From Verrucomicrobiota bacterium (GTDB taxonomy: Bacteria; Verrucomicrobiota; Verrucomicrobiia; Opitutales; UBA953): a stretch of DNA of 56,446 nt. The stretch is from assembly GCA_016871415.1 (NCBI GenBank), contig VHDL01000015.1:1-56446 (forward strand), read 5' to 3'. Under the pieces are notes generated by a model that saw only the letters and a list, made by a program, of their open reading frames with translations, did no database searches and was not told where the DNA came from. Below, one piece after another: positions 40-54,463 of this stretch. The position numbers and the translations under genes are program-made. The number at the start of each line of letters is the position of its first letter. Positions within the stretch are counted from its first letter, which is position 1.

Positions 40-717
40 TCAGAGCGACTTCACCCAGATGTTGCGCCAGCGGATTTCTCCGCCGTGCGTCTGGAGCTGG
101 ATCGGGCCTAGGGCGGGCAGGGCGGCCTTGGGGTCCCAGTAGTTCTGCATGCGGGCGGCGTCGACCACCAGCCTGCCGTTGAGCCAGACCGAGGTGACGT
201 CGCCCTTCTGCGTGATGCGGAACGTATTCCACTCTCCGAAAGGCCGGTCCGCCTTGACCAGCGGGTCGCGTCCGGGCGTCCCGGGGGCGTTATTGAAAAG
301 TCCGCCCGAGCCGAGGTGCGGCTTGCGATCCGGCTTCTTGGGGTCGAACTCCTGGTTCGGGTCCCAGATCTGCACCTGGGGCGTCCCGCGCAGGTAGATG
401 CCGCTGTCGGCCTTGGCCACTGTACGGTATTCGATGCGCAGTTCGATGTCGCCGAATTCCTCGTCCGTGGTCGCGTAGGGACCCGTGCCCGAATTGACCA
501 GCTCGCCGTTCTCGGCCCGCCAATGGAGCGGCAGCTCTTCGCGCATCTTCTTCAGCGCAGCCGCCTTCTTTTCTCCCGTCAGCTTCGCCACCGAGTGGCC
601 GTTGTATCCGTGCCAGCCCTTCAGGTCCTTCCCGTTGAACAGGGTCCGGAATCCGTCCGGCGGTTCCGCGGCCAGGCCGCAGCAGGCGATGAGAAGGCAG
701 GGCAGGACGGATTTCAT
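40..717 (-). CDS. DUF1080 (3-keto-disaccharide hydrolase family) secreted protein
   Basis: A 225-residue protein with an N-terminal signal peptide (hydrophobic LLIACCGLAA, residues 7-16) and one DUF1080 domain filling the rest. Family hallmarks are FNGKDLKGWHGYN near residue 27, DSGIYLRG (about 105) and a GEWNTF-type strand (about 160). This concanavalin-like jelly-roll family is named for hydrolysis of 3-keto-disaccharides and is very common in PVC bacteria. It overlaps the upstream heme protein by 4 bases (ATGA), so the two are probably co-translated; the partner may oxidise what this protein cleaves. It shares a long insert (HSVAKLTGEK followed by an AALKKMREE-like helix) with the first domain of the tandem protein at 22973-24271, pointing to paralogy. 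The substrate is unknown. Confidence 0.88.
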   Translation of the reverse strand: MKSVLPCLLIACCGLAAEPPDGFRTLFNGKDLKGWHGYNGHSVAKLTGEKKAAALKKMREELPLHWRAENGELVNSGTGPYATTDEEFGDIELRIEYRTVAKADSGIYLRGTPQVQIWDPNQEFDPKKPDRKPHLGSGGLFNNAPGTPGRDPLVKADRPFGEWNTFRITQKGDVTSVWLNGRLVVDAARMQNYWDPKAALPALGPIQLQTHGGEIRWRNIWVKSL

Positions 718-3700: not shown

Positions 3701-3740
3701 CCAGACAGGACAGTAGCAACGGTATGACACGGCGCATCAT
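714..3740 (-). CDS. PVC-type heme-binding protein: propeller, HEAT repeats, cytochrome c
   Basis: A 1008-residue exported protein. Residues 1-18 form a signal peptide. Residues about 60-460 form a sorbosone-dehydrogenase-like beta-propeller (the family often called membrane-bound dehydrogenase domain), with DRDGDG-type loops that may bind calcium. Alanine-rich HEAT-like helices follow at about 480-870. A cytochrome c domain ends the protein: heme motif CLVCH at 888-892 and RSLMPEGLE near the C-terminus, supplying a likely axial Met. It probably works in the periplasm, passing electrons from an oxidised sugar or alcohol. It heads the unit that includes the overlapping DUF1080 gene. The start could be either of two adjacent ATG codons (3738-3740 or 3735-3737); the leader ends in ACACCCC directly before ATG, with no clear Shine-Dalgarno sequence. 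Confidence 0.9.
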   Translation of the reverse strand: MMRRVIPLLLSCLALAQSADGVKTLTTYSKAYGASKGSPKVDAGKELPRYPAVPPDEAGRTWTIKEGFRMELAAHEPAVRSPVALCFDERGRMFVCEMIDYSEMRDVKPHLGRISVLEDRDGDGRYETSKVFADDLPWPTGLIWADGGLYVAATPDIIRLEDRDDDGRAEVRKVAFTGFGTGLKILNVQGLANSLQWGPDQRVHVLAGGGNRGKVSSPLRPDQPAVELGGRDFWFEPRTHAFGLEPGGAQYGMSYDDLGRKYGCSNSDHLQHWTHEEPDAGLNPVAPLPSGRRSIAVDGGAAEVFRISPDEPWRIIRTRWRISGAVPGTVEGGGRVSGYFTGATGTTVYRGDAYGSAFVGNTFTGDAGGQLAHRKVLTRAVDGVGMSGARPSDEKGREFAASRDTWVRVVNFANAPDGCLYLIDMYREVIEHPWSIPEEIKQHIDLNSGHDRGRIWRITPEGGRPPRGGKVNLHQADVKELVATLGHANGWHRDTAARLLTEKADPSSRAPLTETLMRHPDTLARLTAFNVLRRLGWMDASAMAAALKGPAELRARALWTLRRDGPPAEMDALATLLGPLADDADPAVRFELALTAARLTDDADALRLGPALRSLAARDHGHPWIGPAVLSARPATLAREVLPGFMQDRRLAVSARAFVSKLIESTPLGLKTDAHDDLLEFALRDGGEVEWLQALDAGLRRTGSSLAKADKAGRLKARLDAATKEAISGDVATRIRAVSLLALSDFKRLKPALDACLPTETPAELRELAVRSAARFSGTESAQWLVTGFGILEGAPKESAFSALRGRPERTDALLKALETGKLKPGALSAGQIDALTRANDKAVAARAAKALASVLPPSREEIARTFSGSIDATGDAAKGRQICEQRCLVCHRAEGKGQAVGPDLLTVKSRGRTGILDAIIHPNREVAAQYAVFEVRTKDGGSRMGIIVDDNATTLTLRMPGGTDSQISRGDVAGTSSTGRSLMPEGLEAGLTAQDMADLLTYIENLR

Positions 3741-22972: not shown

Positions 22973-24271
22973 CTACTTGCCGGCCAGATCCTTGATCGCG
23001 ATGTTCCGGAACTCGGCCGGGTCATTATGGCCGGCGAAGCCGAAAAAGCCGTTCTTGCGGTCCTTGCCGGGGTGGGGGCTCTTCGCCATGACCGTGGCCA
23101 TGTCGACCTTGGAAAGGTCGGTCTCGAGGATCACGGAGCCGTTGAGTTCGACCTTGAGCGTGGAGCCCACGACCGTGACTTCCTGGAAGTTCCATTCGCC
23201 GATGGGGCGCTGGAAGCCGCGCTGGGCGCCGACCATGCCGTAGGCGGAGCCATGGACCTGACGGGGGTCAATCTTGCCCTTCACCTTGTCGTAGTTGTCA
23301 TCGAGCACCTGCAGTTCGCACATGCCGACGTAGGCCGTGTTGCCCGTGCCGGGGTAACGGAGCGCCAGTCCGTTGTTGCCGCCCTTCGGCAGTTTGAATT
23401 CGAGGCGGACGGCGAAGTCGGTCAGGTCCTGGGCGTAGTAGGGCGTGCCGCCCTTGCCCGTCTTGCAGCGGATGGCGCCGTCGACGACCTCGTAGTTGTC
23501 GACCGGACCGGCCCAGCCCGTGAAGTCCTTGCCGTTGAAGATGGACTTGAAGCCGGCGTCGGCCTTCGCGGTGAGGATCCGATTGGCTTCTTCGCCGGCG
23601 ATCTCGCGGATCGCGACGTTACGCCAGCGGATCGGGGCGCCGTGGGTCTGGAGGCAGATCGGGCCCTTGGCGGCGAGGGCGGTTTTGCGGTCGTAATAGT
23701 TCTCCATCGTCGCGTGGTCGACGGTCTGCTTGCCGTTGAGCCAGACGCTCACGCGGGCGCCGGTCATGACGACACGGAGGGTGTTCCATTCGCCGGCGGG
23801 TTTGTCGGCCAGCACGAGCGGGTCCTTGCCGGGGTTGCCCTTGGTGTTGTTCCAGAGCGCGCCGGAGCCCAGCTGGGCGCCGTGCTTGTGGGCCTTCTCA
23901 TCCGTGGGGTCCCAGATCTGGACCTGGGGCGCGCCGCGCAGGTAGACGCCCGAGTCGCCCTTGGGGGCCATGTTGTATTCGAGCACGAGCTCAAAGTCGC
24001 CGTATTCCTTGTCCGTCGTGGCGTAGGGCCCGGTGCCGGGGTTGAGGATCTCGCCGTTCTTGACCGACCAGTGCTGGGAGAACTCCTCGCGCATCTTGGC
24101 GAGCGCTGCGTCGCGCTTCTCGCCGGTCAGCTTGGCCACCGAATGAGGGTTGTAGCCGTGCCAGCCGGAAAGGTCCTTGCCGTTGAACAGCGGGGTGAAG
24201 CCTTCGGGCGTGGCGGCCGGCAGGGCGGCCGCGAAGAGCGCGAGGGCGGGGGTGAGGATGCGCAGGGTCAT
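22973..24271 (-). CDS. Tandem DUF1080 (3-keto-disaccharide hydrolase family) secreted protein
   Basis: A 432-residue exported protein (signal peptide MTLRILTPALALFAAALPAA) with two DUF1080 domains in series. Domain 1 (about 22-225) has FNGKDLSGWHGYN, DSGVYLRGAPQVQIWDP and PAGEWNTLRV. Domain 2 (about 238-430) starts again with FNGKDFTGWAG and contains GNNGLALRYPG and an IGEWNFQEV strand. Domain 1 is close to the single-domain protein at 40-717, sharing the HSVAKLTGEK insert; domain 2 is much more diverged, so the tandem is not a recent internal duplication. It follows the single DUF1080 gene by 12 bases, in one operon closed by the terminator at 22928. It probably cleaves oxidised glycosides in the periplasm. 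Confidence 0.9.
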   Translation of the reverse strand: MTLRILTPALALFAAALPAATPEGFTPLFNGKDLSGWHGYNPHSVAKLTGEKRDAALAKMREEFSQHWSVKNGEILNPGTGPYATTDKEYGDFELVLEYNMAPKGDSGVYLRGAPQVQIWDPTDEKAHKHGAQLGSGALWNNTKGNPGKDPLVLADKPAGEWNTLRVVMTGARVSVWLNGKQTVDHATMENYYDRKTALAAKGPICLQTHGAPIRWRNVAIREIAGEEANRILTAKADAGFKSIFNGKDFTGWAGPVDNYEVVDGAIRCKTGKGGTPYYAQDLTDFAVRLEFKLPKGGNNGLALRYPGTGNTAYVGMCELQVLDDNYDKVKGKIDPRQVHGSAYGMVGAQRGFQRPIGEWNFQEVTVVGSTLKVELNGSVILETDLSKVDMATVMAKSPHPGKDRKNGFFGFAGHNDPAEFRNIAIKDLAGK

Positions 24272-24283
24272 GGGAGGGGTGGG

Positions 24284-24937
24284 TCAGAGGGGTTCGAGGG
24301 TGCAACGGCGCACTTCGAAGGCGCCGCCTTCGGACTGCAGACCGATGAAGCCTTCGGAGAGGTTGAGGCCGGAGAGCCGGTTGGCCTCCTGACCGTTGAC
24401 GAGGATCACGACCGTGTCGCCTTCGCAGACGGTGGTGAAGGTGTTCCATTCGCCGGCGGGCTTCTCAAGTCCGTCCTTGGCGCGTCCGATGCGGTAGCCG
24501 CGGACGGCTCCGGTCTTCTTGTCCTTGAGTTCGGTTCCTTCCTTGGCCTTGGCTCCGGACCACAGGTAGAAGTCGCCCTGGTTCTTGTGCATGCCCTGGC
24601 ACTCGACGCTCTTGGGCCAGACCGCGTCGGGCGGGGTCATGTGCACCACCACGCCGGTGTTGCCGGGCTTGGTGAAGCGCCATTCGACGGTGAAGCGGTA
24701 CTGTCGGTAGCTCTTTTCGGTACGGAGGAAGCCGTTGGGCTTGCCCGTGCAGACGAGCAGGCCGTCCTTCACGGACCAGGTGCCTTCGGCCGGGGCGTTG
24801 TCGCGGAGGTGGGAGACCCAGCCGGACAGGTCCTTGCCGTTGAAGAGTTCGGACTTGGCGGAGGGCTTGGCGGCCTCGGCGGCGTAGGACGAGGAGAACG
24901 CCAGCAGGGAGAGCAGCAGGGTGCGCAGCGGGGTCAT
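24284..24937 (-). CDS. DUF1080 secreted protein
   Basis: A 217-residue protein with a signal peptide (MTPLRTLLLSLLAFSSSYAA) and one DUF1080 domain: FNGKDLSGWVSHLRD (about 32-46), GNTGVVVHM (about 97-105), SVECQGMHKNQGDFYLW, then PAGEWNTFTTV. It lacks the HSVAKLTGEK insert of the other two DUF1080 proteins and keeps the Cys-Gln-Met variant of the central strand, so it belongs to another subfamily. It leads a two-gene unit with the tandem DUF1080 gene. The leader (24938-24975) lies directly behind a terminator; its promoter is not obvious. Confidence 0.9.
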   Translation of the reverse strand: MTPLRTLLLSLLAFSSSYAAEAAKPSAKSELFNGKDLSGWVSHLRDNAPAEGTWSVKDGLLVCTGKPNGFLRTEKSYRQYRFTVEWRFTKPGNTGVVVHMTPPDAVWPKSVECQGMHKNQGDFYLWSGAKAKEGTELKDKKTGAVRGYRIGRAKDGLEKPAGEWNTFTTVCEGDTVVILVNGQEANRLSGLNLSEGFIGLQSEGGAFEVRRCTLEPL

Positions 24938-37336: not shown

Positions 37337-40300
37337 ATGAAGACGTCATCCTTGCTCAGGAATCTCACCGCTTTGGTCCTGTCCGCCGCCGGATTGGCCG
37401 CCGCAGAACCGCAGCCGGTGACGGAATCCCCCGTCATGCAGGCCAAGGACAAGGAGCGCATCGTGGAACTCCGCGGTCTGCTCAACGGCTCCAAGGAGCT
37501 CTACCTGCTGGTCTCCGACCTCGGCGCCAACGCCTGCGACTGGGCGAACTGGATCGAACCCGTGGTGGCGCTCAAGGACGGCACCAAGGTCGACCTCACC
37601 AAGCTCAAGTGGAAGGAGGTCGACTCGCTCGGCCAGACCCGCGTGGGTCGCAATTACGACGGCAAGCCCCTGGTCGTCGCCGGCAAGACCTATCAGGTCG
37701 GGATCGGGACCCACGCCAACTCCTTCATCGCCTTCGAGCTGCCGGGTCCGGGCGACGTCTTCGTCTCCAAGGTGGCCATCGATGACGGCGGCGCCATCCG
37801 CGGCGGCAAGCCCAGCTCGGCTGACGTCAAGTTCGCGGTCTTCACCCAGCGCCCCTCCAAATACAAGCCGGTCGATTTCGACTCCGGCCCGCTCGCCGTC
37901 CCGACCGAGCTCTTCACCCTGCCGGAAGGGCTCGAAGTCACCGTCTGGGCGACGTCCCCCATGATCTTCAACCCGACGAACATCGATTTCGACGAGAAGG
38001 GACGGATGTACGTCGCGGAGGGCGTCAACTACCGCAGCAAGGCCGGTCGGCGTCCGGAAGGCGACCGCATCGTGATCCTCGAGGACACGACCGGCGCGGG
38101 GAAGGCCGACAAGGTGTCCGTCTTCACGCAGGAGACCGCCCTGGTCTCGCCGCTCGGCGTGGCCCACATCGACGGCAAGGTCGTCGTCTCGCAGCCGCCG
38201 GACCTGCTCGTCTACACCGACGTCGACGGCGACGGAAAGATCGACCTCGCCAAGGGCGACCGCCGCGAGGTTCTCCTCACGGGCTTCAACGGTCGCAATC
38301 ATGACCACTCGCTGCACAGCGTGACCTTCGGACCGGACGGACGCTGGAACTTCAACCAGGGCAACACCTGCGCGCAGTTCACGGACCGTTCCGGCAAGAC
38401 CTTCCGCATCGGCAGCCCTTACAACCACGGTGAGTGGACCAAGCAGGCGGTCGACGCCCAGGCGGTGGCCGGTCTCCGCAGCGATGACGGCAACGTCTGG
38501 GTGGGCGGCTTCTCCGTGCGCATGAACAGCGACGGCACGGAGGCCCGCATCATGGGGCACAACTACCGCAACTCCTACGAGCAGTCGGTCAATTCCTTCG
38601 GCGACATGTATCAGAGCGACAACGACGACCCGCCCGCCTGCCGCGTCTCGCTGATCATGGAGGGCGGCAACGCGGGCTTCGCCTCCGCCGACGGCAAGCG
38701 TTCCTGGGGCGCCGATCGGCGTCCGGGACAGGAGACGCCCGTCGCCGAATGGCGCCAGGACGACCCGGGCACGATGCCGGCCGGCGACGTCTACGGCGGC
38801 GGTTCACCGACCGGCGTGGCCTTCTACGAGAACGGCGCCCTCGGCGATCGCTGGAACGGACTGCTCCTCGCCTGCGAAGCGGGTAAGAACGTCGTCTTCG
38901 GTTACCTGCCGAAGCCCGACGGGGCCGGCATGAAGCTCGAGCGCTTCGATTTCTTCACTTCGAACAAGGACAAGGAGTGGGCCGGTTCCGACTTCCTCGG
39001 CGGCAAGGCCACCGGGGTGCTCAAGACGCGATTCCGTCCCTCCGACGTCTGCGTGGGTCCCGACGGCGCCATCTACGTCGCCGACTGGTTCGACCCCGGC
39101 GTGGGCGGCCACGCCACGCGCGACAACGCGCTGGCCGGCACGATCTATCGCATCGCCCCCAAGGGATTCAAGTCGGTGGTGCCCAAGATCGACCTCGCCA
39201 CGACGGAAGGCCAAATCGCCGCGCTCCGCAGCCCTTCGCCCAACGTGCGTGCCGGCGGTTTCAACCGTCTCAAGGCCTCGGGTGACAAGGCGTATGACGC
39301 GGTCGCCGCGCTCCTCGCCGACGCCAATCCCTACGTGTCCTCCCGCGCCGTCTGGCTGCTCGCCCAGCTCGGCGAACGCGGCGTCGCCCGGGTCCGTCAG
39401 GAGCTCGGCTCCTCCGACGACACGCGACGTCTGGTCGCCTTCCGCGCCCTCCGCGCCGCCGGCCGTGACGTCTTCGCCCTCTGCGAGAAGATGTCGGACG
39501 ATGCTTCCCCCGCGTTGCGTCGGGAGGTCGCCCTTGCGCTCCGTGACTTCCGCACGCCCGAGGCGGTGCGGCTGCTCGTGAAGATCGCCCGCCGTTTCGA
39601 CGGCAAGGACCGTTCCTACCTGGAGGCGATCGGACTCGCCGCGACTGACCGCGAGGCCGAAGTACACGCCGCCATCGCCAAGGAGATGTCCAGTCCGGTC
39701 ATGGAATGGTCCGAGGCCTACGCCTGGCTGACCTGGCGCCTGCACCCGGCCTCGACGGTCCGTGACGTCCGAGCGCGCCTGGTGTCCGGCAAGCTCGACG
39801 AGATCACACTCAAGCGCGACCTCACCACGCTCGCCTTCACCCGCAGCGCCGAGGCCGTGGGCACGATGGCCGAACTCTCCCTCAGCAAGGACTTCCCCCA
39901 GCGTGACCTGGCCAAGTGGTGGCTGGGCAATCGCAAGGCCGGCATCTGGAAGGACCTGGACGTCGACGGCGTGGTCAAGGCGCATGGCGGTGACGCCTCC
40001 GCCGCCAAGCTCGTCGCGGCTGAACTGCCCCCCGAGCCGGTCGGCGCCAAGCCGCTCGCCTCGGTCGAGGCCATCGCCGCGCTCAAGGGTGACGTCGAAC
40101 GGGGCAGGGCGGCCGCCGCGGTCTGCGTGGCCTGCCACAAGTTCGAGGGCAAGGGCGTGGACTACGGCCCCGACCTGACGACCTACGCCAAGCAGCAGTC
40201 TCCGGAGTCGCTCATCCTGAACATCGCCCAGCCCTCCAACAACATCTCGCACGGCTTCGAAGGAACCCGCGTGGCGCTGGATGACGGCATGGTGATCACC

Positions 40301-40486
40301 GGCATGGTGCTCTCGCCCGGCGACCCGCTCATCATCAAGTCGATGGGCGGCCTGGTGCAGTCCGTGCCCCGCGCCCGCATCAAGGAGGAGAAGCCGCTGG
40401 GCCGATCCCTGATGTTCTCGCCCGCCCAGATGGGCCTGACCGAGCAGAGCGTGGCCGACATCGTCGCCTACCTGCGCAGTCTCTGA
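37337..40486 (+). CDS. PVC-type heme-binding protein with N-terminal NPCBM domain
   Basis: A 1049-residue exported protein. Signal peptide (1-23); NPCBM/NEW2-type carbohydrate-binding module at about 35-165, with LLVSDLGANACDWANWIEPV and YQVGIGTHANSFIAFEL. The sorbosone-dehydrogenase-like propeller spans about 185-620, with VDGDGKIDL-type loops; HEAT-like helices follow at about 625-880. A cytochrome c domain ends the protein, with CVACH (930-934) and RSLMFSP near the end. The binding module implies a polysaccharide or glycoside substrate; the heme passes electrons on. The start is preceded by GAACCCCG. A strong terminator follows at 40519, so it is a single-gene unit. Confidence 0.92.
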   Translation: MKTSSLLRNLTALVLSAAGLAAAEPQPVTESPVMQAKDKERIVELRGLLNGSKELYLLVSDLGANACDWANWIEPVVALKDGTKVDLTKLKWKEVDSLGQTRVGRNYDGKPLVVAGKTYQVGIGTHANSFIAFELPGPGDVFVSKVAIDDGGAIRGGKPSSADVKFAVFTQRPSKYKPVDFDSGPLAVPTELFTLPEGLEVTVWATSPMIFNPTNIDFDEKGRMYVAEGVNYRSKAGRRPEGDRIVILEDTTGAGKADKVSVFTQETALVSPLGVAHIDGKVVVSQPPDLLVYTDVDGDGKIDLAKGDRREVLLTGFNGRNHDHSLHSVTFGPDGRWNFNQGNTCAQFTDRSGKTFRIGSPYNHGEWTKQAVDAQAVAGLRSDDGNVWVGGFSVRMNSDGTEARIMGHNYRNSYEQSVNSFGDMYQSDNDDPPACRVSLIMEGGNAGFASADGKRSWGADRRPGQETPVAEWRQDDPGTMPAGDVYGGGSPTGVAFYENGALGDRWNGLLLACEAGKNVVFGYLPKPDGAGMKLERFDFFTSNKDKEWAGSDFLGGKATGVLKTRFRPSDVCVGPDGAIYVADWFDPGVGGHATRDNALAGTIYRIAPKGFKSVVPKIDLATTEGQIAALRSPSPNVRAGGFNRLKASGDKAYDAVAALLADANPYVSSRAVWLLAQLGERGVARVRQELGSSDDTRRLVAFRALRAAGRDVFALCEKMSDDASPALRREVALALRDFRTPEAVRLLVKIARRFDGKDRSYLEAIGLAATDREAEVHAAIAKEMSSPVMEWSEAYAWLTWRLHPASTVRDVRARLVSGKLDEITLKRDLTTLAFTRSAEAVGTMAELSLSKDFPQRDLAKWWLGNRKAGIWKDLDVDGVVKAHGGDASAAKLVAAELPPEPVGAKPLASVEAIAALKGDVERGRAAAAVCVACHKFEGKGVDYGPDLTTYAKQQSPESLILNIAQPSNNISHGFEGTRVALDDGMVITGMVLSPGDPLIIKSMGGLVQSVPRARIKEEKPLGRSLMFSPAQMGLTEQSVADIVAYLRSL

Positions 40487-46047: not shown

Positions 46048-48063
46048 ATGCGTATCGTCGCCGTACTCGCCTTCATCGCCTTCTCCGCTTCGGCCGTCGC
46101 CGACGGTCCCAAGGACAACCTGCCCGCGGCGGTCCGACCGATCCCTCCGACCGACAAGGCCGTGCCCGTGTCCGAGGCCGACCGCGCCGCGCTCAACGCA
46201 TCATTGGTCGAACTCCGCAAGGACATCGACGCCGCCGCCAAGGCGCAGGCCAGGAACGCCCGGCTGCAGGAATTCCTGCCTGACCTGGAAATCTACCACA
46301 AGGCGGTGGACTGGGCGCTCCGTCACAACGAGGTCTTCAAGAAGGAGGAGATCAAGTCCGCCCACGAACTGATCGCCGAGGGCAGGGCGCGCGCGGCCGC
46401 CTTCGCCAAGGGCGAGACGCCCTGGACGACGCAGACGGGCCTGGTGGTGCGCGGCTACCGTTCGCGCATCGACGGTTCGGTGCAGCCCTACGGCATGGTC
46501 ATTCCCGCCGGTTGGGCGAACGGCGCGCCGATGCGCCTCGACTTCTGGTGCCACGGCCGCGGGGAGACCCTGACCGAACTGGCCTTCATGACCGAACGGC
46601 GGCGCAACGTCGGGCAGGTCCCCGCCGACGGCCGGCTGGTCTTGCATCTCTACGGACGCTACTGCTGCGCGAACAAGTTCGCGGGAGAAGTCGACCTCTG
46701 GGAGGCCTACGAGCACGCTCGCCGATCCTACGCCATCGACGACGACCGGCTGTTCATCCGCGGGTTCTCGATGGGCGGCGCGGCCGTCTGGCAGTTCGGG
46801 GCTCACTACGCGGACCGCTGGTGCGGCATCAGCCCCGGTGCCGGTTTCTCCGAGACTCCCGAGTTCCTCAACGTCTTCCAGAACGAGGACGTATCCAAGA
46901 TACCTTCCTGGCAGAAGACCCTCTGGGGCTGGTACAACGCGAGCGACGTGCCGGTGAACTTCACCAACGCGCCGCTGGTCGCCTACAGCGGCGAGCTGGA
47001 CAAGCAGAAGCAGGCCGCCGACGTGATGGCCCGGGAGCTTTCCAAGGTCGGCGTCACCATGACGCACATCATCGGACCGCAGACGGCCCACAAGATCCAC
47101 CCGGACTCCATGGCCGAGATTGAGCGTCGGCTGGCCCAGATGGCCTCCGCCGGCCGCGACCGCATGCCCCGGCAGGTCGCCTTCGAGACGTTCTTCCTCC
47201 GCTACAACCAGATGCACTGGGTGCAGATCGACCGCATGGAGTCCCACTGGACGAAGGCGCGCATCCAGGCCGACGCCGTGCATGCCGCCATCATCAACGT
47301 GATGACCCGCAACGTCACCGCCTTCACCCTCGACATGCCCGCCGGCCTGTCCCCTCAGTCGCGGTTCATCACGACCGTGGTCAAAGTCGACGGGCAGGAC
47401 GTCCAGACGGTCACCGCCGGAAGCGATCGATCCTGGAAGGTCTCCTTGGTCCGCAAGGACGGCCGGTGGACTGTCGGGAAGCCCGACGACGGCGCCCTGA
47501 CCAAGCGCCACGGGGTGTCCGGCCCCATCGACGACGCATTCATGGACGCCTTCCTCTTCGTCTCGCCCTCGGGCAAGGCGCTCAATGAGAAGGTCGGAGC
47601 CTGGACGAAGTCCGAACGCGAGCGGGCCGTCTTCGAATGGCGCCGCCAGTTCCGCGGCGACGCCCCGATGAAGACCGACGCGCAGGTGACCGAGGCCGAC
47701 ATCGCGTCGCGCAACCTCGTCCTGTGGGGCGACCCTTCGAGCAACGCCGTCCTGGCCAGGATCGCGGACCGCCTCCCCATCAAGTGGACCGCCGAAGGGC
47801 TGACGGTGGACGGTCGCACTTACGCCGCGGGCGAGCACGCCCCCGTCCTGGTCTATCCGAACCCCCTGAACCCTTCCCGCTACGTCGTCATCAACAGCGG
47901 CTTCACCTATCGGGAATACGACTACCTGAACAACGCCCGTCAGGTGCCCAAGCTCCCCGACTGGGCCGTGATCGACCTGCGCACCCCGCCCGACTCGATG
48001 TCGCCCGGCAAGGTCGTCGACGCCGGTTTCTTCGACGACGCCTGGGGCTGGCGCAAGCGCTGA
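46048..48063 (+). CDS. Secreted serine hydrolase with alpha/beta fold (prolyl-oligopeptidase-like)
   Basis: A 671-residue protein with a signal peptide (MRIVAVLAFIAFSASAVA). A helical N-terminal part (about 40-125) precedes an alpha/beta-hydrolase core: FWCHGRGET (167-175, oxyanion region), nucleophile Ser241 in IRGFSMGGAAVW, and the candidate His in GPQTAHKIHP. The C-terminal 290 residues form a beta-rich domain of unknown role, preserved in PVC relatives annotated as prolyl oligopeptidase-family proteins. It probably acts as an esterase or peptidase in the periplasm. The start codon is preceded by AATCCCG, and the element at 45986 lies upstream. Confidence 0.8.
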   Translation: MRIVAVLAFIAFSASAVADGPKDNLPAAVRPIPPTDKAVPVSEADRAALNASLVELRKDIDAAAKAQARNARLQEFLPDLEIYHKAVDWALRHNEVFKKEEIKSAHELIAEGRARAAAFAKGETPWTTQTGLVVRGYRSRIDGSVQPYGMVIPAGWANGAPMRLDFWCHGRGETLTELAFMTERRRNVGQVPADGRLVLHLYGRYCCANKFAGEVDLWEAYEHARRSYAIDDDRLFIRGFSMGGAAVWQFGAHYADRWCGISPGAGFSETPEFLNVFQNEDVSKIPSWQKTLWGWYNASDVPVNFTNAPLVAYSGELDKQKQAADVMARELSKVGVTMTHIIGPQTAHKIHPDSMAEIERRLAQMASAGRDRMPRQVAFETFFLRYNQMHWVQIDRMESHWTKARIQADAVHAAIINVMTRNVTAFTLDMPAGLSPQSRFITTVVKVDGQDVQTVTAGSDRSWKVSLVRKDGRWTVGKPDDGALTKRHGVSGPIDDAFMDAFLFVSPSGKALNEKVGAWTKSERERAVFEWRRQFRGDAPMKTDAQVTEADIASRNLVLWGDPSSNAVLARIADRLPIKWTAEGLTVDGRTYAAGEHAPVLVYPNPLNPSRYVVINSGFTYREYDYLNNARQVPKLPDWAVIDLRTPPDSMSPGKVVDAGFFDDAWGWRKR

Positions 48064-48157: not shown

Positions 48158-49939
48158 ATGCCTGTCATCTCCGAGAAGGAACTGCAGCCCGTCTATGACG
48201 TGATCGTCGTCGGATCCGGCGCCGGCGGCGGTCAGACCGCCTACACGCTCACCATGAACGGCGTGAAGGTGCTCATGCTCGAGGCCGGACGTTACTACGA
48301 TCCCCTCACGGAGACGCCCATGTTCCAGTCACGGGCCCAGGCGCCCCTGCGCGGCATGTCCACGCGTGAGAAGCCTTTCGGTTTCCACGACGCTACCGTC
48401 GACGGCGGCTGGGAGGTCCCGGGGGAGCCTTACACGCAGGCCTCGGACGATCCCGCGCAACGTTTCGACTGGTGGCGCGCACGCATGCTGGGCGGACGTA
48501 CCAACCACTGGGGACGCATCTCCCTCCGCAACGGCCCTTACGATTTCAAGCCCCGTTCGCGTGACGGCCTCGGTTTCGACTGGCCGATGACCTACGAGGA
48601 AGTGGCGCCTTGGTATGACAAGGCCGAGATGCTCGTCGGCGTCTACGGTTCCAACGAAGGCCTTGAGAACACGCCCGATTCCCCCGAAGGCTGCCTGCTG
48701 CCGCCTCCGAAGGCCCGCGCCGGCGAGCTCTACGTCAAGAAGCACGTCGCCAAGTTCGGCATCCCGGTGATTCCGATCCACCGTGCCATCCTGAGCGTGC
48801 GTCAGGATTTCGAGAAGCTCCCGTCCAAGCTGCACCCCGGCAACGCCCGGGCCCAGCGCATCCTCGCCGAGTCCATGAAGGCTCGCGCCGCGTGCTTCTG
48901 GGCCACGGACTGCGGCCGCGGCTGCTCCATCCGTGCGAACTACCAGTCCACGACCGTCCATCTGCCTCCGGCCCTCGCCACCGGCAACCTCGACATCCTC
49001 TGCGACGCGCACGTCCACACCGTGACCCTCGGCAAGGACGGCAAGGCCGATGGCGTGACCTACGTCGACAAGAAGACCGGCAAGGAGCGCGGCGTGAAGG
49101 GCAGGGCGGTGGTCCTCGCGGCCAGCTCGGGCGAGACCGCCCGCATCCTGCTGAATTCCAAGTCCAACCGTCATCCCGCCGGCATGGGCAACTCCTCCGG
49201 CCTGGTCGGCAAGTACATCATGGACACCGTCGGCGCCAAGCTCGGCGGAAGCGTGCCCGCCTTCGAGAACCTCCCCGTGCACAATGAGGAGGGAGCGGGC
49301 ACCCACGTCTACATCCCCTGGTGGCTCTACAAGGAGCAGCTCGCCGGCAAGCTCGGCTTCGCCCGCGGCTACCACATCGAATTCGGCACGGGACGTCGCA
49401 TGCCCGGCCTCGGCGCCGGCGGCGCCGGACCCGGCTACGGCAAGGCCTACAAGGAGGAGGTCCGCCTCCGTTACGGCGCCGGCATCGGCTTCGCCGGCCG
49501 CGGCGAGATGATTCCCAACGAGAACTCCTTTTGCGAGCTCGACCCCGCCGTGAAGGACAAGTGGGGCATCCCCGTGCTCCGTTTCCATTGGAAATGGTCC
49601 GAGCACGAGCTCAAGCAGGCCCTCCACATGGAGCAGACCTTCGCGATGATGATCGAGGCCATCGGCGGCAAGGTGCGCAAGCCCGCCACCGACGGCGCCA
49701 AGGCCATCGAGCCGGGCGGCTCGATCATCCACGAGGTCGGCGGCGCGATCATGGGCGACGACCCGAAGAAGTCCGTCACCAACCGCTGGCACCAGCTCTG
49801 GGACGTGCCCAACGTCGTCCTCAACGACGGTTCCGCGTTCTGCAGCAACGCGGACAAGAACCCCACGCTCACCATCATGGCCCTCGCCTGGCGCTCCTCG
49901 GAGCACCTCATCGAGGAGATGCGCAAGGGCAACCTCTGA
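48158..49939 (+). CDS. GMC-family FAD oxidoreductase (large subunit)
   Basis: A 593-residue glucose-methanol-choline oxidoreductase. The FAD-binding motif VIVVGSGAGGGQTAY (15-29) and LEAGRYYDP lie at the N-terminus. The C-terminal domain has HEVGGAIMGDDPKKS, where HxxG..MG is typical, and a final FCSNADKNPTLTIMALAWR strand. No signal peptide is present; the Tat-signal small subunit encoded next probably carries it across the membrane folded. This pairing is seen in gluconate 2-dehydrogenase and in glucoside 3-dehydrogenases, which oxidise sugars and pass electrons to a cytochrome c. The leader reads CATCCCC before ATG. Confidence 0.92.
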   Translation: MPVISEKELQPVYDVIVVGSGAGGGQTAYTLTMNGVKVLMLEAGRYYDPLTETPMFQSRAQAPLRGMSTREKPFGFHDATVDGGWEVPGEPYTQASDDPAQRFDWWRARMLGGRTNHWGRISLRNGPYDFKPRSRDGLGFDWPMTYEEVAPWYDKAEMLVGVYGSNEGLENTPDSPEGCLLPPPKARAGELYVKKHVAKFGIPVIPIHRAILSVRQDFEKLPSKLHPGNARAQRILAESMKARAACFWATDCGRGCSIRANYQSTTVHLPPALATGNLDILCDAHVHTVTLGKDGKADGVTYVDKKTGKERGVKGRAVVLAASSGETARILLNSKSNRHPAGMGNSSGLVGKYIMDTVGAKLGGSVPAFENLPVHNEEGAGTHVYIPWWLYKEQLAGKLGFARGYHIEFGTGRRMPGLGAGGAGPGYGKAYKEEVRLRYGAGIGFAGRGEMIPNENSFCELDPAVKDKWGIPVLRFHWKWSEHELKQALHMEQTFAMMIEAIGGKVRKPATDGAKAIEPGGSIIHEVGGAIMGDDPKKSVTNRWHQLWDVPNVVLNDGSAFCSNADKNPTLTIMALAWRSSEHLIEEMRKGNL

Positions 49940-49949
49940 ACTTACGACC

Positions 49950-50639
49950 ATGGACAACGAACACCCTGATTCTCTCCGTCGTCTCGACCGCCGGGAGGTG
50001 CTCCGCTGGATCGGTGGCGCCGCCGCCGCGGCGGCGGCCGCCAGCCGGCTGCCCATCGGCGAAGCCCAGACATCCGCGCGCATCGGGCGTGACACCACTC
50101 CGTTCAAGTCTTCCGGACAGCGCATCGGCTGGGATCCGGTGCTCAACAAGAACTACAGTCCCGGCGACCTGTGGCCCCTGACCTTGGACGCTCCGCGTCG
50201 CCGCGCGGCGGCCGCGCTCTGCGACCTGATCCTTCCGCCCGAACCCGGCGACAAGAAGCCGTCCGAGCTCGGCGTGCCCGATTTCATCGATGAGTGGATC
50301 AGCTCACCTTACGATGAGACGAACAAGGACCGTCCCGTCATCATCGAAGGCCTTTCGTGGCTCGACGCCGAATCCGGTCGGCGATTCGGAGGCAAGCCCT
50401 TCGCCGACCTCAGCGAATCCCAGCAGTGCGCCATCGCCGACGACATCTGCGGCAGAACGCCCGTCAGGAATGAGTTCAAGCAGGCGCAGCGCTTCTTCGA
50501 CCGTTTCCGATACCTCGCCGCCAGCGGCTATTACACCACGCCGCAGGGCTGGAAAGACATCGGTTACGTGGGCAATGTCCCCATGGTCGATTTCCCCGGC
50601 CCGACGCCCGAGGCCCTGAAGCACCTGGGGTTGGAATAA
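49950..50639 (+). CDS. Gluconate 2-dehydrogenase subunit 3-family protein, Tat-exported small subunit
   Basis: A 229-residue protein with twin-arginine signal DRREVLRWIGGAAAAAAAAS (13-32). The mature part has the family pattern LDAPRRRAAAALCDLILPP and GVPDFIDEWISSP, ending with GYYTTPQGWKDIGYVG. It is the hitch-hiker subunit that exports and stabilises a GMC dehydrogenase. It starts 10 bases after the GMC gene, forming a two-gene complex. A cytochrome partner could be the large fusion protein encoded next. Confidence 0.9.
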   Translation: MDNEHPDSLRRLDRREVLRWIGGAAAAAAAASRLPIGEAQTSARIGRDTTPFKSSGQRIGWDPVLNKNYSPGDLWPLTLDAPRRRAAAALCDLILPPEPGDKKPSELGVPDFIDEWISSPYDETNKDRPVIIEGLSWLDAESGRRFGGKPFADLSESQQCAIADDICGRTPVRNEFKQAQRFFDRFRYLAASGYYTTPQGWKDIGYVGNVPMVDFPGPTPEALKHLGLE

Positions 50640-50833
50640 GGTCGAGGATCCGAGGGCCGGATGGCCAAGAGGACCGGAGGTTGCAACGCCTTCGGTCTAT
50701 TTGTGTCTGCCTGATGTATCGGGTAGGGTTGAGCGCCCTCGCTCAACCGCGGCTGACCGAGGGCGGTCAGCCCTACCTCTGAATTTAAACTCTTGGAACA
50801 ATCGTTCGTGCGGATTGCCTAACGGCTACCCCC
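50640..50833. other. Intergenic region with a cruciform repeat and an SOS-box-like palindrome
   Basis: The 194 bases upstream of the DUF1080-cytochrome fusion hold the 56-base repeat at 50722-50777 and the palindrome GAACAATCGTTC at 50796-50807. The gene start is preceded by CTACCCCC. No certain -35/-10 pair is seen; TTGGAA at 50794 is a weak -35 candidate. Confidence 0.5.
50722..50777. repeat. REP-like palindromic element with two hairpins inside an outer stem
   Basis: The structure is fully regular. Outer stem GGTAGGG/CCCTACC (50722-50728 with 50771-50777). Hairpin 1: TTGAGCG-CCCT-CGCTCAA (50729-50746). Linker CCGCGG. Hairpin 2: CTGACCG-AGGG-CGGTCAG (50753-50770). All 21 pairs are Watson-Crick. 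The loops CCCT and AGGG are complementary to each other. The two halves differ at four positions, each difference being balanced inside its own arm. This looks like a dispersed repetitive extragenic palindrome; only one copy is in this window. Confidence 0.85.
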
Positions 50834-53800
50834 ATGAAGCGCCTCGCACCCGTCTTCGTCATGCTCGCCGGACTGCTCGGTCTGAGCGCCGCGCCGATGC
50901 CGCTTTTCGACGGCAAGTCCCTTGCCGGCTGGGAGGGCGACCCCAAGGTCTGGCGGGTCGAGGAGGGCGTGATCGTAGGCGGCTCAATGGCGGGCAACCC
51001 GCGCAACGAGTTCCTCACGACCAAGGGAAAGTATTTCAACTTCCGGCTCCGGCTCGAATACAAGCTCACGGGCACGGAGGGCTTCGTGAACGGGGGCGTG
51101 CAGCTGCGCAGCCAGCGCGCGGTCAATCCTCCTAACGAGATGATCGGATATCAGGCGGACATCGGCGCGGGCTTCACCGGCTCACTGTACGACGAGTCGC
51201 GTCGCAAGCGCGTCCTGGCCAAGGTCGGGACGGGGGTCGGTTCCAAGGGCGTGAAGTCGGAGGCAGAGCTGAAGCAGGTGGAGAAGTCCGGAGACTGGAA
51301 CACCTATGAGGTGGTGGCGGTCGGCCCGCGCATCATGATCTACCTGAACGGACAGAACACCGTCGACTATACGGAGTCCGACCCTGCCATCGACGACTCG
51401 TACGGGCATGTCGGCCTGCAGATCCACGGCAACTGCAAGGCGGAGATCCGCTTCCGGAACATCACGCTAGACCCGCTCACCGACGTCCCCGTCACGACCC
51501 GTGACGAGGTCCTGAGCCGTTTCGGAGAGCCCAGGAAGCCGTGGACGCCGCCCGCGCCGTTCAAGGAGGGGAAGTTTGAGCTCGGTCAGGATGAGGTCGT
51601 GGTCTTCATCGGGCAGGAGAACCTGGTCAGGGAAGCCAAGTCGGGTGAGATCGAGTCACGGATCGCCGCGGCCTTCGCTTCGAGGAACCCCGCCTTCCGC
51701 TCGATGGCTTGGGAGGCCGACACGGTCCATGAGCAGTGGCGTGACCTGAACTTCGGTCCCTGGAAGGGGCAGCTCGAGGCCGCCCGCGCGACGACGTTGA
51801 TCGTGCAGTTCGGTCAGGCCGAGGCCCTGCAAGGGCAGGGCGGTCTGGCCAGGTTCAAGGCCGATTACCACAAGCTGCTCGACGACCTCAGCCGCCACAC
51901 CCCGCGCATCGTGCTGCTTTCCCCGGCGGGCTTCATGGCGTCGGTCCGGCCTCCGGATCTGCGTTCCGCCGGAAAGTTGAAGGACCTGGACGCCTATGCC
52001 GCCGCGGTGGGTGAAATCGCGCGGCTGCGCGGCCTGCCCTATGTGAAGCTCACCGAGGTCACGCAGGACGTCCCGTCGGTCGACGGCCTACATCTTTCGG
52101 CCAAGGGGCTGGAGCGCGTCGGTCAGGAAGTGGCCTTCGCGCTCGGTCTGCCCGACAATCAGGAGATCTCCGCGAGGCTGCGTCCGGCGATCGTCGAGAA
52201 GAACCGTCTCTGGGCCGATTGCTGGCGTCCGGCCAACTGGTCGTTCGTCTACGGCGACCGGATCTCTCAGAACTACGGCAAAGGCTTCGGACCCGCGCCC
52301 TCGCTGAAGCAGAACTTCGAGGCCTACCGTCCGCTCGTGGCTTCCTGGGACCGGCACATCCAGGCCTTGGCCCGTGGTGAGAAGTCGGTCGAACCCGCGC
52401 CGCAGGCCGGCCCGGCCGTGAGCACCGAGAAGGTCATGACCTCGCCGGAGGAGCAGGCCACGTTCCAGGTCGCCGACGGCTTCGTCGTCAACCTCTTCGC
52501 CGATGAATCCCTTGGCGTCGCCAAGCCCACGCAGTTTGCCTGGGACGCCCGGGGCCGCCTCTACGTCTGCTGCTCCCCGACCTACCCGCAGTCGGTGCCC
52601 GGCGTGAAGCCTCGTGACTACATCCTGCGGCTCGAGGACACGGACGGAGACGGCAAGGCCGACCGTTCAGTGCGTTTCGCGGAGGGCCTGACCATGGTCC
52701 AGGGCGTCGAGCCCATGAGCGAGGACAAGGATGGCGTGTCGCTGGTGGTGTGCGACTTCGACCGTCTGCTGCTGCTCACGGACCGCGACGGGGACGGCAA
52801 GGCCGATGAGACCACGGTGCTCATGTCGGGCTTCGGCGTCGGCGACACGCACCAGCTGGTCAATTCGGTCAGCCACGGTCCGGACGGCACGCTCTGGATG
52901 AGTCAGGGCCTGCACGCGATCACCCGGGTCGAGACCCCGCATGGAATCGTCAGCCTGCCCAAGTCGGGACTCATGCGCTACGACTTCAAGCGCCAGCGGC
53001 TCCAGCCCTTCTTCCAATACGGCAAGGCCGGTCACAACTGCTGGGGCGTGGCCTTCGACGACTTCTTCCAGCCCTTCCACAAGTCGGGCGACCGCGTGGC
53101 CGGCTATTACAGCCTGCCCGGACTGGGCGCGACGCAGACCCCCGAAGAATATGCGGGCACGCATTCGCTCTTCGATTCCCCGCTGAAGTCCAATTCCGTC
53201 GACATCGTCGGCACGGCGGCCATGCCGCCGGAACTCCAGGGCGCCGCCCTCATCGGAGGCTACTACGGCAACACGTTGGACCTGCATCGGTTCGTCGATG
53301 ACGGCGCCGGCTTCAGGACCGAGCGGATCGTCAGCCCCATCGTCTCGAGCAGCAAGGCCTTCCGGCCTGTCGACGTCTCGGTCGGGCCGGACGGAGCGCT
53401 CTACGCGTGCGACTGGTTCAATGCGGTCATCGGCCACTATCAGGCCAGTTATGCTGATCCGCGTCGCGACCGTTCGCACGGCCGCATCTGGCGCATCACC
53501 GCCAAGGGGCTGCCTCCGGTGAGGCAGCCTGACCTCGTCTCCATGACGGAGTCCGAACTGTTCGCGCAGCTCCGCTCACCCGAGCGCTGGACCCGCTACC
53601 AGGCCCGTCGTCTGCTCTTCCATCGTCCGACCGAGAAGGTCGCCCCGGCCGCCGATGCGTTCATCGCTCAGGACTTGCCTGAACGGCAATGGATGGAGGC
53701 CCTCGGTGTCATGCAGTCGCATGGATTGGTCCGCCCGGACTTGCTCGGCCGGCTGGGTTCGTCGGCTGATTTTCGGATCCGTGCCTATGCTGCGCGCGTC

Positions 53801-54463
53801 ACAGGCGAATGGTCTTCCGCGCTTCCTGACGCCCAGGCGCGCCTGAACAAGGCGGCCGTAGATCCGCACCCGCGGGTGCGTCTCGAAGCCGTAGTGGCGC
53901 TCAGTCACGTCGGCGGCCGTGACTCCCTGCGGTCGGCCCTTGGGGCGGCGGATCATCCGAGGGACAAGTTCCTGGATTATGGCCTTCGTCAGACCGTGCG
54001 GCATCTGCTGCCCTCGTCCGGCGGCCTCGCAGACCAGCTGCCGCCCGCTCAGGCGGTCTACCTCAGCAAGATCGCCGGCAGCGGACCTCCCGCCGTCCCG
54101 GTCGGACAGGAAATCTACGAAGCGCTCTGCCTCAACTGCCATCAGCCGGCCGGGCAGGGGTTGGAGGGCGTCTATCCTCCCTTGGCCGGCAGCGAATGGG
54201 TCAGGGGTGACAAGGATCGTCTGATCAGGATCGTCCTCCACGGACTTGAGGGCCCGACCAAGGTGGCGGGCAAGGACTACGGCGTCGTGCCCATGCCTCC
54301 CATGGGCTTGGACGACCAGCAGACCGCCGAAGTGCTGAATTACGTCCGGGGAACTTGGGGTGGGAAGGGCCTGCCTTCGGTCAGCACGGATGACGTGGCA
54401 CGTATCCGCGCGGCTTCCCGTGCTAGGCCGTGGACACAGGCGGAGCTCGATCGGACCAAGTGA
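50834..54463 (+). CDS. DUF1080-SGNH-like-propeller-HEAT-cytochrome c fusion protein
   Basis: A 1209-residue exported protein. Signal peptide (1-19); DUF1080 domain (about 22-215, PLFDGKSLAGWEG and GDWNTYEVV). An SGNH-hydrolase-like domain follows (about 250-440), where block I reads VVFIGQENLVREA, so the usual GDS nucleophile is absent, while the block V pattern DGLHLS is kept. A propeller spans about 545-905, with LEDTDGDGKAD and TDRDGDGKAD loops, then HEAT-like helices to about 1080. Cytochrome c has CLNCH at 1099-1103 and VVPMPPMG as a likely axial Met. It follows the GMC pair on the same strand. It could both accept electrons and cleave 3-keto-glycosides; this is inference. Confidence 0.9.
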   Translation: MKRLAPVFVMLAGLLGLSAAPMPLFDGKSLAGWEGDPKVWRVEEGVIVGGSMAGNPRNEFLTTKGKYFNFRLRLEYKLTGTEGFVNGGVQLRSQRAVNPPNEMIGYQADIGAGFTGSLYDESRRKRVLAKVGTGVGSKGVKSEAELKQVEKSGDWNTYEVVAVGPRIMIYLNGQNTVDYTESDPAIDDSYGHVGLQIHGNCKAEIRFRNITLDPLTDVPVTTRDEVLSRFGEPRKPWTPPAPFKEGKFELGQDEVVVFIGQENLVREAKSGEIESRIAAAFASRNPAFRSMAWEADTVHEQWRDLNFGPWKGQLEAARATTLIVQFGQAEALQGQGGLARFKADYHKLLDDLSRHTPRIVLLSPAGFMASVRPPDLRSAGKLKDLDAYAAAVGEIARLRGLPYVKLTEVTQDVPSVDGLHLSAKGLERVGQEVAFALGLPDNQEISARLRPAIVEKNRLWADCWRPANWSFVYGDRISQNYGKGFGPAPSLKQNFEAYRPLVASWDRHIQALARGEKSVEPAPQAGPAVSTEKVMTSPEEQATFQVADGFVVNLFADESLGVAKPTQFAWDARGRLYVCCSPTYPQSVPGVKPRDYILRLEDTDGDGKADRSVRFAEGLTMVQGVEPMSEDKDGVSLVVCDFDRLLLLTDRDGDGKADETTVLMSGFGVGDTHQLVNSVSHGPDGTLWMSQGLHAITRVETPHGIVSLPKSGLMRYDFKRQRLQPFFQYGKAGHNCWGVAFDDFFQPFHKSGDRVAGYYSLPGLGATQTPEEYAGTHSLFDSPLKSNSVDIVGTAAMPPELQGAALIGGYYGNTLDLHRFVDDGAGFRTERIVSPIVSSSKAFRPVDVSVGPDGALYACDWFNAVIGHYQASYADPRRDRSHGRIWRITAKGLPPVRQPDLVSMTESELFAQLRSPERWTRYQARRLLFHRPTEKVAPAADAFIAQDLPERQWMEALGVMQSHGLVRPDLLGRLGSSADFRIRAYAARVTGEWSSALPDAQARLNKAAVDPHPRVRLEAVVALSHVGGRDSLRSALGAADHPRDKFLDYGLRQTVRHLLPSSGGLADQLPPAQAVYLSKIAGSGPPAVPVGQEIYEALCLNCHQPAGQGLEGVYPPLAGSEWVRGDKDRLIRIVLHGLEGPTKVAGKDYGVVPMPPMGLDDQQTAEVLNYVRGTWGGKGLPSVSTDDVARIRAASRARPWTQAELDRTK

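Follow-up and report, generated by a model that had tools for sequence, protein, structure and literature searches.

The Caulobacter dehydrogenase LacABC is said to consist of a GMC flavoprotein, a hitch-hiker subunit and a cytochrome. Price et al. proposed in 2022, as described in PMC9007349, that LacABC oxidises periplasmic lactose and that a DUF1080 protein hydrolyses the resulting 3'-ketolactose, the two being encoded together in diverse bacteria. For the glucoside 3-dehydrogenase of R. radiobacter, a mono-heme cytochrome c is described as accepting the electrons (PMC9915066). In enzymes of the fructose and glucose dehydrogenase type, according to PMC9727119, electrons pass from flavin adenine dinucleotide (FAD) to a 3Fe-4S cluster; the small subunit acts as hitch-hiker in twin-arginine translocation (Tat), and a heme c domain accepts the electrons at 7-8 Å; hitch-hiker and cytochrome complete the complex, one heme domain taking electrons from the cluster. 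Here we analysed a four-gene operon on a 56,446-nucleotide contig (VHDL01000015.1, assembly GCA_016871415.1; hereafter the window) of a Verrucomicrobiota bacterium of the order Opitutales, in which a GMC dehydrogenase and its hitch-hiker subunit (the pair) are followed by one secreted protein (the fusion) that joins a DUF1080 domain to a mono-heme cytochrome c. Oxidation followed by cleavage is in outline already published for LacABC and DUF1080; the novelty lies in a fusion located next to the pair, an arrangement for which no report was found in the open-access literature.

The pair is well supported as a predicted FAD-dependent dehydrogenase of the sugar type, built for a cytochrome c acceptor, because its build and conserved cysteines match those of fructose dehydrogenase (FDH) and FAD-dependent glucose dehydrogenase (GDH). 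The GMC protein scored 73.6 bits for GMC_oxred_C and 37 bits for GMC_oxred_N (Pfam cut-offs 24.6 and 23), and the hitch-hiker scored 78.2 bits for Gluconate_2-dh3 (cut-off 23.4). The best solved relatives of the GMC protein are the large subunits of FDH, its top match in PDB (E 7e-37), and of FAD-GDH. Cys246, Cys252 and Cys256 pair with three cysteines of FDH, which we take to be those that bind the 3Fe-4S cluster, and are kept in 7/7 aligned GMC proteins drawn from Verrucomicrobiota, Pseudomonadota and Bacteroidota; His525 and Asn568, presumably the usual GMC catalytic pair, are likewise conserved among the aligned GMC proteins. Reading of the translations by eye showed a Tat motif, LDRREVLRW, in the hitch-hiker and no signal peptide in the GMC protein. 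The hitch-hiker is the sole PF13618 match in a genome of 2.2 Mb and 99.5% completeness.

The fusion, whose N-terminus appears Sec-like by eye, scored 136 bits for 3keto-disac_hyd/DUF1080 (PF06439; amino acids 23-212; Pfam cut-off 26.8), 204.6 bits for DUF7133 (best stretch 541-753), 31.4 bits for HEAT_2 (970-1045, between propeller and cytochrome) and 41.5 bits for Cytochrom_C (1091-1175). The NCBIfam model TIGR02604, "PVC-type heme-binding CxxCH protein", was matched at 192 bits (cut-off 122.2), PVC denoting the Planctomycetes, Verrucomicrobia and Chlamydiae phyla; at E<=0.01, the C-terminal heme domain TIGR02603 was reported for a 1049-amino-acid protein of the window but not for the fusion. 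Our own profile places an SGNH-like domain at amino acids 246-434, where Lipase_GDSL_2 reached 30.2 bits (292-425), below its cut-off of 32.9. These results confirm the three genes that an earlier, sequence-only reading had described, namely a GMC gene, a Tat-signal partner and a fusion of 1209 residues: the open reading frames (ORFs) lie at exactly the coordinates given, with Pfam matches above cut-off for GMC, Gluconate_2-dh3, DUF1080 and cytochrome. Its plan of DUF1080, propeller and cytochrome also stood, with amendments: HEAT repeats precede the cytochrome, the catalytic serine of the SGNH-like domain is missing, and the operon begins one gene earlier, with a secreted alpha/beta hydrolase separated from the GMC gene by 94 nucleotides. 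The four genes share the + strand, with gaps of 94, 10 and 194 nucleotides (Table 1).

Oxidation followed by cleavage is plausible for this operon, which may encode a periplasmic system that oxidises glycosides in the manner of LacABC or glucoside 3-dehydrogenase, with the fusion as both acceptor and cleaver; we hold this reading with some doubt, its chance of being right being somewhat short of even. The folded GMC-FAD enzyme would be exported through Tat together with the hitch-hiker, and the pair would oxidise a hydroxyl group of a sugar, with C3 of a glycoside as the likeliest site. From FAD, electrons would then run through the 3Fe-4S cluster to the C-terminal mono-heme cytochrome of the fusion, and from there into the respiratory chain; the DUF1080 domain of the fusion would bind the 3-keto product and cleave it. 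A possible role of the upstream hydrolase is to strip an ester group from the substrate.

We next consider how widely the arrangement is conserved. Among the best 80 of 267 relatives of the GMC protein (79 loci), the nearest contig, with a 98% identical GMC protein, is titled Verrucomicrobiota, and the other 78 loci are titled as Verrucomicrobiota groups, mostly Opitutae/Opitutia, apart from one titled Roseateles; many isolate names point, on our own reading, to lakes. In a FastTree tree of 146 GMC proteins (local support values; six duplicate loci and GMC pieces below 480 bits dropped), the window protein falls in a clade of 25 rows with local support of 98, in which the fusion lies directly downstream in 20, the contig ends in 3 and no fusion is found in 2. 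The fusion thus follows the pair in 20/22 uncut loci, the contig ending inside the fusion gene in six of the 20 (L131, L135, L136, L138, L140 and L141). By tblastn, 28 distinct loci have the hydrolase directly upstream of the GMC gene and on its strand: 20 with the fusion, 3 cut and 5 without it. Because the hydrolase precedes the GMC gene in loci with and without the fusion, the core of the operon is hydrolase, GMC and hitch-hiker, to which one clade has added the fusion. At L204 (12680-16305), which belongs to the L088 genome, the fusion appears as two reading frames of 139 and 1069 amino acids, which may reflect a sequencing error or decay; the two-ORF fusion of L088/L204 was counted as a fusion.

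Linkage of GMC pairs to DUF1080 extends beyond this clade. Eight plasmid loci were opened out of 669 records with a match, a non-random choice made by genus among the best 15. Annotation places DUF1080 no more than three genes from the pair in the Pseudoalteromonas, Xanthomonas, Paracoccus and Runella loci and shows none within that distance in those of Hymenobacter, Catenovulum and Croceicoccus; in the unannotated Novosphingobium record, our own profile places DUF1080 beside a second pair and not the matched one. The Pseudoalteromonas locus, whose GMC protein is 52% identical to that of the window, reads Gfo/Idh, isomerase, major facilitator superfamily transporter, DUF1080, GMC, hitch-hiker and isomerase, and those of Xanthomonas and Paracoccus combine GMC, hitch-hiker and a stand-alone DUF1080 with isomerases and Gfo/Idh.

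Within Verrucomicrobiota, we counted neighbours in a control set of 75 pairs outside the fusion loci, which includes two fragmented genes (L098, L108) and omits the fusion loci L088 and L089. DUF1080 occupied adjacent same-strand slots in 5/92 cases vs 3/558 distal slots (odds ratio 10.6, p 0.002), and slots up to three genes from the pair in 8/426 vs 3/558 beyond (p 0.065), by Fisher tests that ignore relatedness. On the GMC tree, DUF1080 linkage, adjacent or fused, requires 10 changes and has therefore been gained or lost repeatedly. With our greedy ORF caller, 8/79 loci (L142, L175, L176, L179, L182, L186, L190 and L202) gave no GMC/hitch-hiker pair, as did L286 from a separate search; at L175 a DUF1080 overlaps the end of the hitch-hiker and was left out of the counts.

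CxxCH proteins of any kind, many of them multiheme, were also more frequent within three genes of the pairs (21/426 vs 10/558 beyond, p 0.009). Such a gene was found in only 16 loci of the set, which implies that the majority of GMC pairs rely on a cytochrome encoded elsewhere. A general linkage of PVC-type cytochromes to GMC pairs in Verrucomicrobiota was considered and rejected, since PVC propellers near the pairs of this set are not enriched (3/426 vs 6/558, p 0.74). PVC-type cytochrome genes do lie near the pair in Runella, where the gene adjoins DUF1080, and in Catenovulum, where the C-terminal cytochrome of the adjoining PVC protein resembles that of the fusion by eye. Separately, a multiheme protein of 330-373 amino acids with 8 or 9 CxxCH motifs and an N-terminus that looks membrane-anchored directly follows a distinct branch of hitch-hiker/GMC pairs (Table 1); through it, electrons from sugar oxidation might reach a multiheme chain. 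Upstream of pairs without DUF1080 we observed a Gfo/Idh gene (L166 6947-8413) and a glucuronyl-esterase-like gene (L168 7914-9245).

Table 1. Features of the operon, by position in the window, and multiheme genes that follow other GMC pairs, by position in the named locus.
Feature	Position	Strand	Evidence
Secreted alpha/beta hydrolase, Peptidase_S9 fold, 671 amino acids; first gene of the operon	46048..48063	+	Pfam Peptidase_S9 27.3 bits (cut-off 22.6)
GMC flavo-dehydrogenase, catalytic subunit, 593 amino acids	48158..49939	+	ORF, Pfam, PDB match
Cys246, Cys252 and Cys256 of the GMC protein, probable 3Fe-4S ligands	48893..48925	+	Alignment with fructose dehydrogenase
Gluconate_2-dh3 hitch-hiker subunit with Tat signal, 229 amino acids	49950..50639	+	ORF, Pfam
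Two adjoining palindromes in the gap between hitch-hiker and fusion	50723..50777	not assigned	Fold z -4.33 for the 194-nucleotide gap
Secreted fusion, 1209 amino acids: DUF1080, SGNH, propeller, HEAT, cytochrome c	50834..54463	+	ORF, Pfam, NCBIfam
DUF1080 / 3-keto-disaccharide hydrolase domain, subtype YQADIG...YDESRR	50900..51469	+	Pfam, alignment
SGNH-like domain without catalytic serine block	51569..52135	+	Pfam, own profile, alignment
Propeller (TIGR02604/DUF7133), fold closest to pyrroloquinoline quinone (PQQ) sugar dehydrogenases	52448..53503	+	NCBIfam, structure model
HEAT repeats	53741..53968	+	Pfam
Mono-heme cytochrome c domain; CLNCH at 54128-54142	54104..54358	+	Pfam, PDB profile match
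Multiheme CxxCH gene, L094	7116-8153		
Multiheme CxxCH gene, L096	3722-4843		
Multiheme CxxCH gene, L097	11842-12834		
Multiheme CxxCH gene, L099	5282-6292		
Multiheme CxxCH gene, L110	11787-12848		
Multiheme CxxCH gene, L265	12169-13287		
Multiheme CxxCH gene, L266	7146-8144		

Several observations weigh against the reading that the fusion serves the pair, the absence of PVC propeller enrichment given above among them. The full DUF1080-SGNH-propeller-CxxCH architecture was met in 12 genomes of the order and phylum samples, beside the pair in 3/12 (G000, the window genome, with G116 and G166) and away from it in 9/12, some contigs among these nine genomes being short; SGNH-propeller proteins without DUF1080 occur more widely than the full architecture, and those met in the order sample were left out of the 12. 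In family f33, where the DUF1080-SGNH part (amino acids 1-442) served to score the fusion, itself seen whole up to CxxCH in five fetched regions (L235-L238 and L240), this part occurs in 37/68 genomes and PF13618 in 50/68, and in the 33 genomes with both the two are unlinked by coordinates in 33/33. Closer to the window, the hydrolase-GMC-hitch-hiker operon lacks the fusion in 5/25 uncut loci (L086, L087, L148, L155 and L199), and the GMC protein of L148, without the fusion, is nearly identical to that of L146, which has it; the fusion can therefore be lost cleanly.

Sequence divergence also separates the two. Between the window and L126, identity is 93% for the hydrolase, 98% for the GMC protein and 83% for the hitch-hiker vs 80% for the fusion, within which the propeller is 91%, the DUF1080 domain 75% and the cytochrome 64% identical; against L128, the DUF1080 domain and cytochrome of the fusion are 88% and 80% identical. 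Since the GMC proteins of the window and L126 are 98% and the fusions 80% identical, pair and fusion differ in history, and the fusion looks to be a mosaic with a history unlike that of the GMC gene. Domain-wise identity to the window fusion varies between the fusion genes of L126 (12533-16192) and L128 (12590-16222) in ways which suggest recombination among fusion genes.

Further points of this kind lie within the proteins themselves. DUF1080 proteins beside GMC pairs carry E-x-Q in 8/8 aligned sequences, where the fusion has Q-A-D (within Y-Q-A-D), although several of their other motifs are retained in the fusion. YQADIG and YDESRR are invariant in 16 aligned fusion sequences, and DUF1080 domains of the YDESRR type lie on propeller ORFs in 49/62 cases vs 5/45 for other DUF1080 domains, some of these ORFs being cut by locus ends. 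Judged by sequence, the DUF1080 domain of the fusion is a distinct subtype, unlike the aligned DUF1080 proteins that adjoin GMC genes. No catalytic serine was met at the SGNH serine block as we placed it ourselves, on what we take to be the block and its GDS motif; the residues there are G-Q-E-N, invariant in the 16 aligned sequences. The cytochrome of the fusion matched the cytochrome domains of nitrite reductases at E 2e-25, more strongly than the docking-heme region of the cytochrome subunits of FDH and GDH (7w2j_C 324-443 and 8hdd_B 327-426; E 2e-9 and 2e-8). Phe247 of the GMC protein occupies the place of Cys217 of FDH, which is taken to be the counterpart of the cysteine that joins the catalytic and small subunits in Burkholderia cepacia GDH as described in PMC9727119. 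Gfo/Idh (PF01408), with 23 matches in the genome, has 0 on the contig of the window.

These findings are compatible with a fusion that is a self-contained redox or glycosidase protein of the PVC type: an AA12/aldose-dehydrogenase-like propeller would reduce its own cytochrome, or the protein would act as a glycosidase, sharing no more than its substrate with the pair, whose cytochrome would be encoded elsewhere. We regard this as a serious candidate, as likely as the reading of the fusion as acceptor and cleaver and thus likewise somewhat short of even. The whole-fusion structure model (alignment A1, 16 sequences) was poor and was not used, with a mean predicted local distance difference test (pLDDT) of 56.7 and a predicted template modelling score (pTM) of 0.34, whereas the propeller model reached pLDDT 80.9 and pTM 0.88. 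Its top ten VIA-align neighbours were sugar or glucose dehydrogenases or AA12 (Z 24.1-27.0), followed by luciferin-regenerating and SMP30-like propellers (Z about 23.1); three of the ten titles name PQQ, and we take the remaining entries to be of that kind. When a profile of 22 PVC propellers was aligned with GSDH members, hhalign gave a probability of 98.9%. Profile A1 had no propeller match among PDB sequences at E<=0.1, and the more diverse profile A3 gave weak ones (2g8s, E 0.006) amid many repeat proteins. Because the fold of the modelled propeller is closest to PQQ sugar dehydrogenases, the cytochrome may serve the fusion itself and need not serve the GMC enzyme. The scarcity of CxxCH genes near other pairs, the unequal divergence of pair and fusion, and the occurrence of the architecture mostly without a nearby GMC pair point the same way. 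A purified propeller-HEAT-cytochrome c protein is described as hydrolysing lactose with a Km of 1.8 mM (Cheng et al. 2017; PMC5342196), so that, together with the likeness of the propeller, the fusion could be an independent enzyme.

Against such self-sufficiency, Foldseek ordered by E-value ranks a luciferin-regenerating enzyme first and PQQ-type sugar dehydrogenases fourth and sixth, and in our own reading of the hhalign alignment arginines of the PQQ-ligand type, at the positions we take to be theirs, are not evident in the fusion. PqqE had 0 matches in the window genome and 24 genus relatives, several of them incomplete and with no control genome passing the cut-off either; uptake of PQQ from outside is possible. 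Fusion and pair also co-occur across genomes: in f33, PF13618 is present in 33/37 genomes with the fusion vs 17/31 without (p 0.002), or 29/31 vs 7/16 among good-quality genomes (p 0.0003), and in the phylum sample all 7 full-fusion genomes fall among the 35/387 with PF13618, relatedness inflating both tests. In the order sample, G131 carries the fusion without a PF13618 match. No partner recurred among twenty neighbour proteins of unlinked fusions, and an FAD_oxidored gene adjoins the unlinked fusion of L236.

The pair may instead oxidise a target other than C3, such as an alcohol or aglycone freed by the upstream hydrolase, with DUF1080 a mere carbohydrate-binding module, an account we consider unlikely. 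The most constant neighbour of the clade is indeed the secreted alpha/beta hydrolase and not a 3-keto pathway gene, and the best PDB relatives of the GMC protein are fructose and glucose dehydrogenases, which oxidise positions other than C3. DUF1080 and CBM66 overlap in annotation according to PMC5673643, and PSCyt proteins, another group of PVC cytochromes, are described as bearing carbohydrate-binding domains (He et al. 2017; PMC5615132). However, GMC relatives of 34-52% identity stand in operons with DUF1080, isomerases and Gfo/Idh, and the repeated changes in DUF1080 linkage on the GMC tree likewise speak against this account.

Returning to oxidation by the pair with the fusion as acceptor and cleaver, we regard it as a reasonable hypothesis, partly supported by the comparative evidence and weakened by the independent life and history of the fusion. 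In the sequence-only reading, a GMC subunit, a hitch-hiker and the fused cytochrome would form one periplasmic complex, whose 3-keto product the DUF1080 domain would cleave. The build of the pair agrees with that scheme, whereas the fused cytochrome need not belong to it; DUF1080 adjoins GMC pairs more often than it lies further off, but in the fusion it is of another subtype. The neighbourhood is conserved within one clade, while elsewhere the architecture mostly lies away from the pair and close relatives of the operon do without the fusion.

Compared by description, the operon resembles LacABC with CCNA_01705 of Caulobacter (PMC9007349) in encoding a periplasmic multi-component dehydrogenase near a secreted DUF1080 protein. 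That system is described as having a single-domain DUF1080 protein and adjacent sugar epimerase/reductase genes, whereas here DUF1080 and cytochrome sit on a single polypeptide, separated by SGNH, propeller and HEAT, a hydrolase leads the operon, and Gfo/Idh is absent from the contig. The R. radiobacter enzyme shares the transfer, proposed here, from an FAD enzyme to a mono-heme cytochrome c, which is described there as a separate protein without DUF1080 (PMC9915066). B. cepacia FAD-GDH and FDH share a GMC protein with cluster cysteines, a hitch-hiker and a cytochrome with a homologous docking-heme region, but have a tri-heme cytochrome subunit and no hydrolase domain, and their inter-subunit disulphide cysteine seems unconserved here. 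The fusion has the propeller-HEAT-cytochrome architecture of PVC-type CxxCH proteins and matches TIGR02604 above cut-off; it differs from them in adding DUF1080 and SGNH, in its place in a GMC operon, and in the unreported TIGR02603. AA12 pyranose and PQQ aldose sugar dehydrogenases resemble it in propeller fold (Z 24-27), and the Coprinopsis pyranose dehydrogenase also in being joined to a cytochrome, reportedly cytochrome b; in the fusion, however, no PQQ ligands are evident, and the genome has no match to PqqE.

Freshwater Verrucomicrobia are rich in cytochromes peculiar to the PVC phyla. For their PSCyt cytochromes, He et al. (2017) describe the function as unknown and report that gene density falls as the density of glycoside hydrolase genes rises (r -0.62; PMC5615132). 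The fusion belongs to TIGR02604, a PVC group distinct from PSCyt, for which we found one paper with an activity in the open-access literature; the same kind of question is made testable here, as the operon offers a concrete substrate class and electron donor for a TIGR02604 protein and a fused form of the 3-keto route. TIGR02604 proteins at large might be periplasmic electron acceptors and scaffolds for oxidative, keto-sugar cleavage of glycosides, with this operon as a Rosetta case that links dehydrogenase, hitch-hiker, cleaving domain and cytochrome, perhaps in one oxidise-and-cleave complex that takes the place of ordinary glycoside hydrolases; we see a low probability for so broad a generalisation.

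PF06439 has 25 matches in the genome, 21 of them above cut-off. Four more DUF1080 domains lie in the window (40-717, 22973-24271 and 24284-24937), two of them in tandem in a single protein and none with YDESRR. A fusion paralogue at L091 (1-4800) carries two tandem DUF1080 domains before SGNH and propeller, the GMC pair of that genome being on a different contig. The first palindrome of the doublet between hitch-hiker and fusion is present at three genome sites and is perhaps a repetitive extragenic palindromic (REP)/REPIN-type element. Two further PVC-type propeller proteins with CxxCH are encoded in the window at 37337-40486 and 714-3740, one of which has an NPCBM domain.

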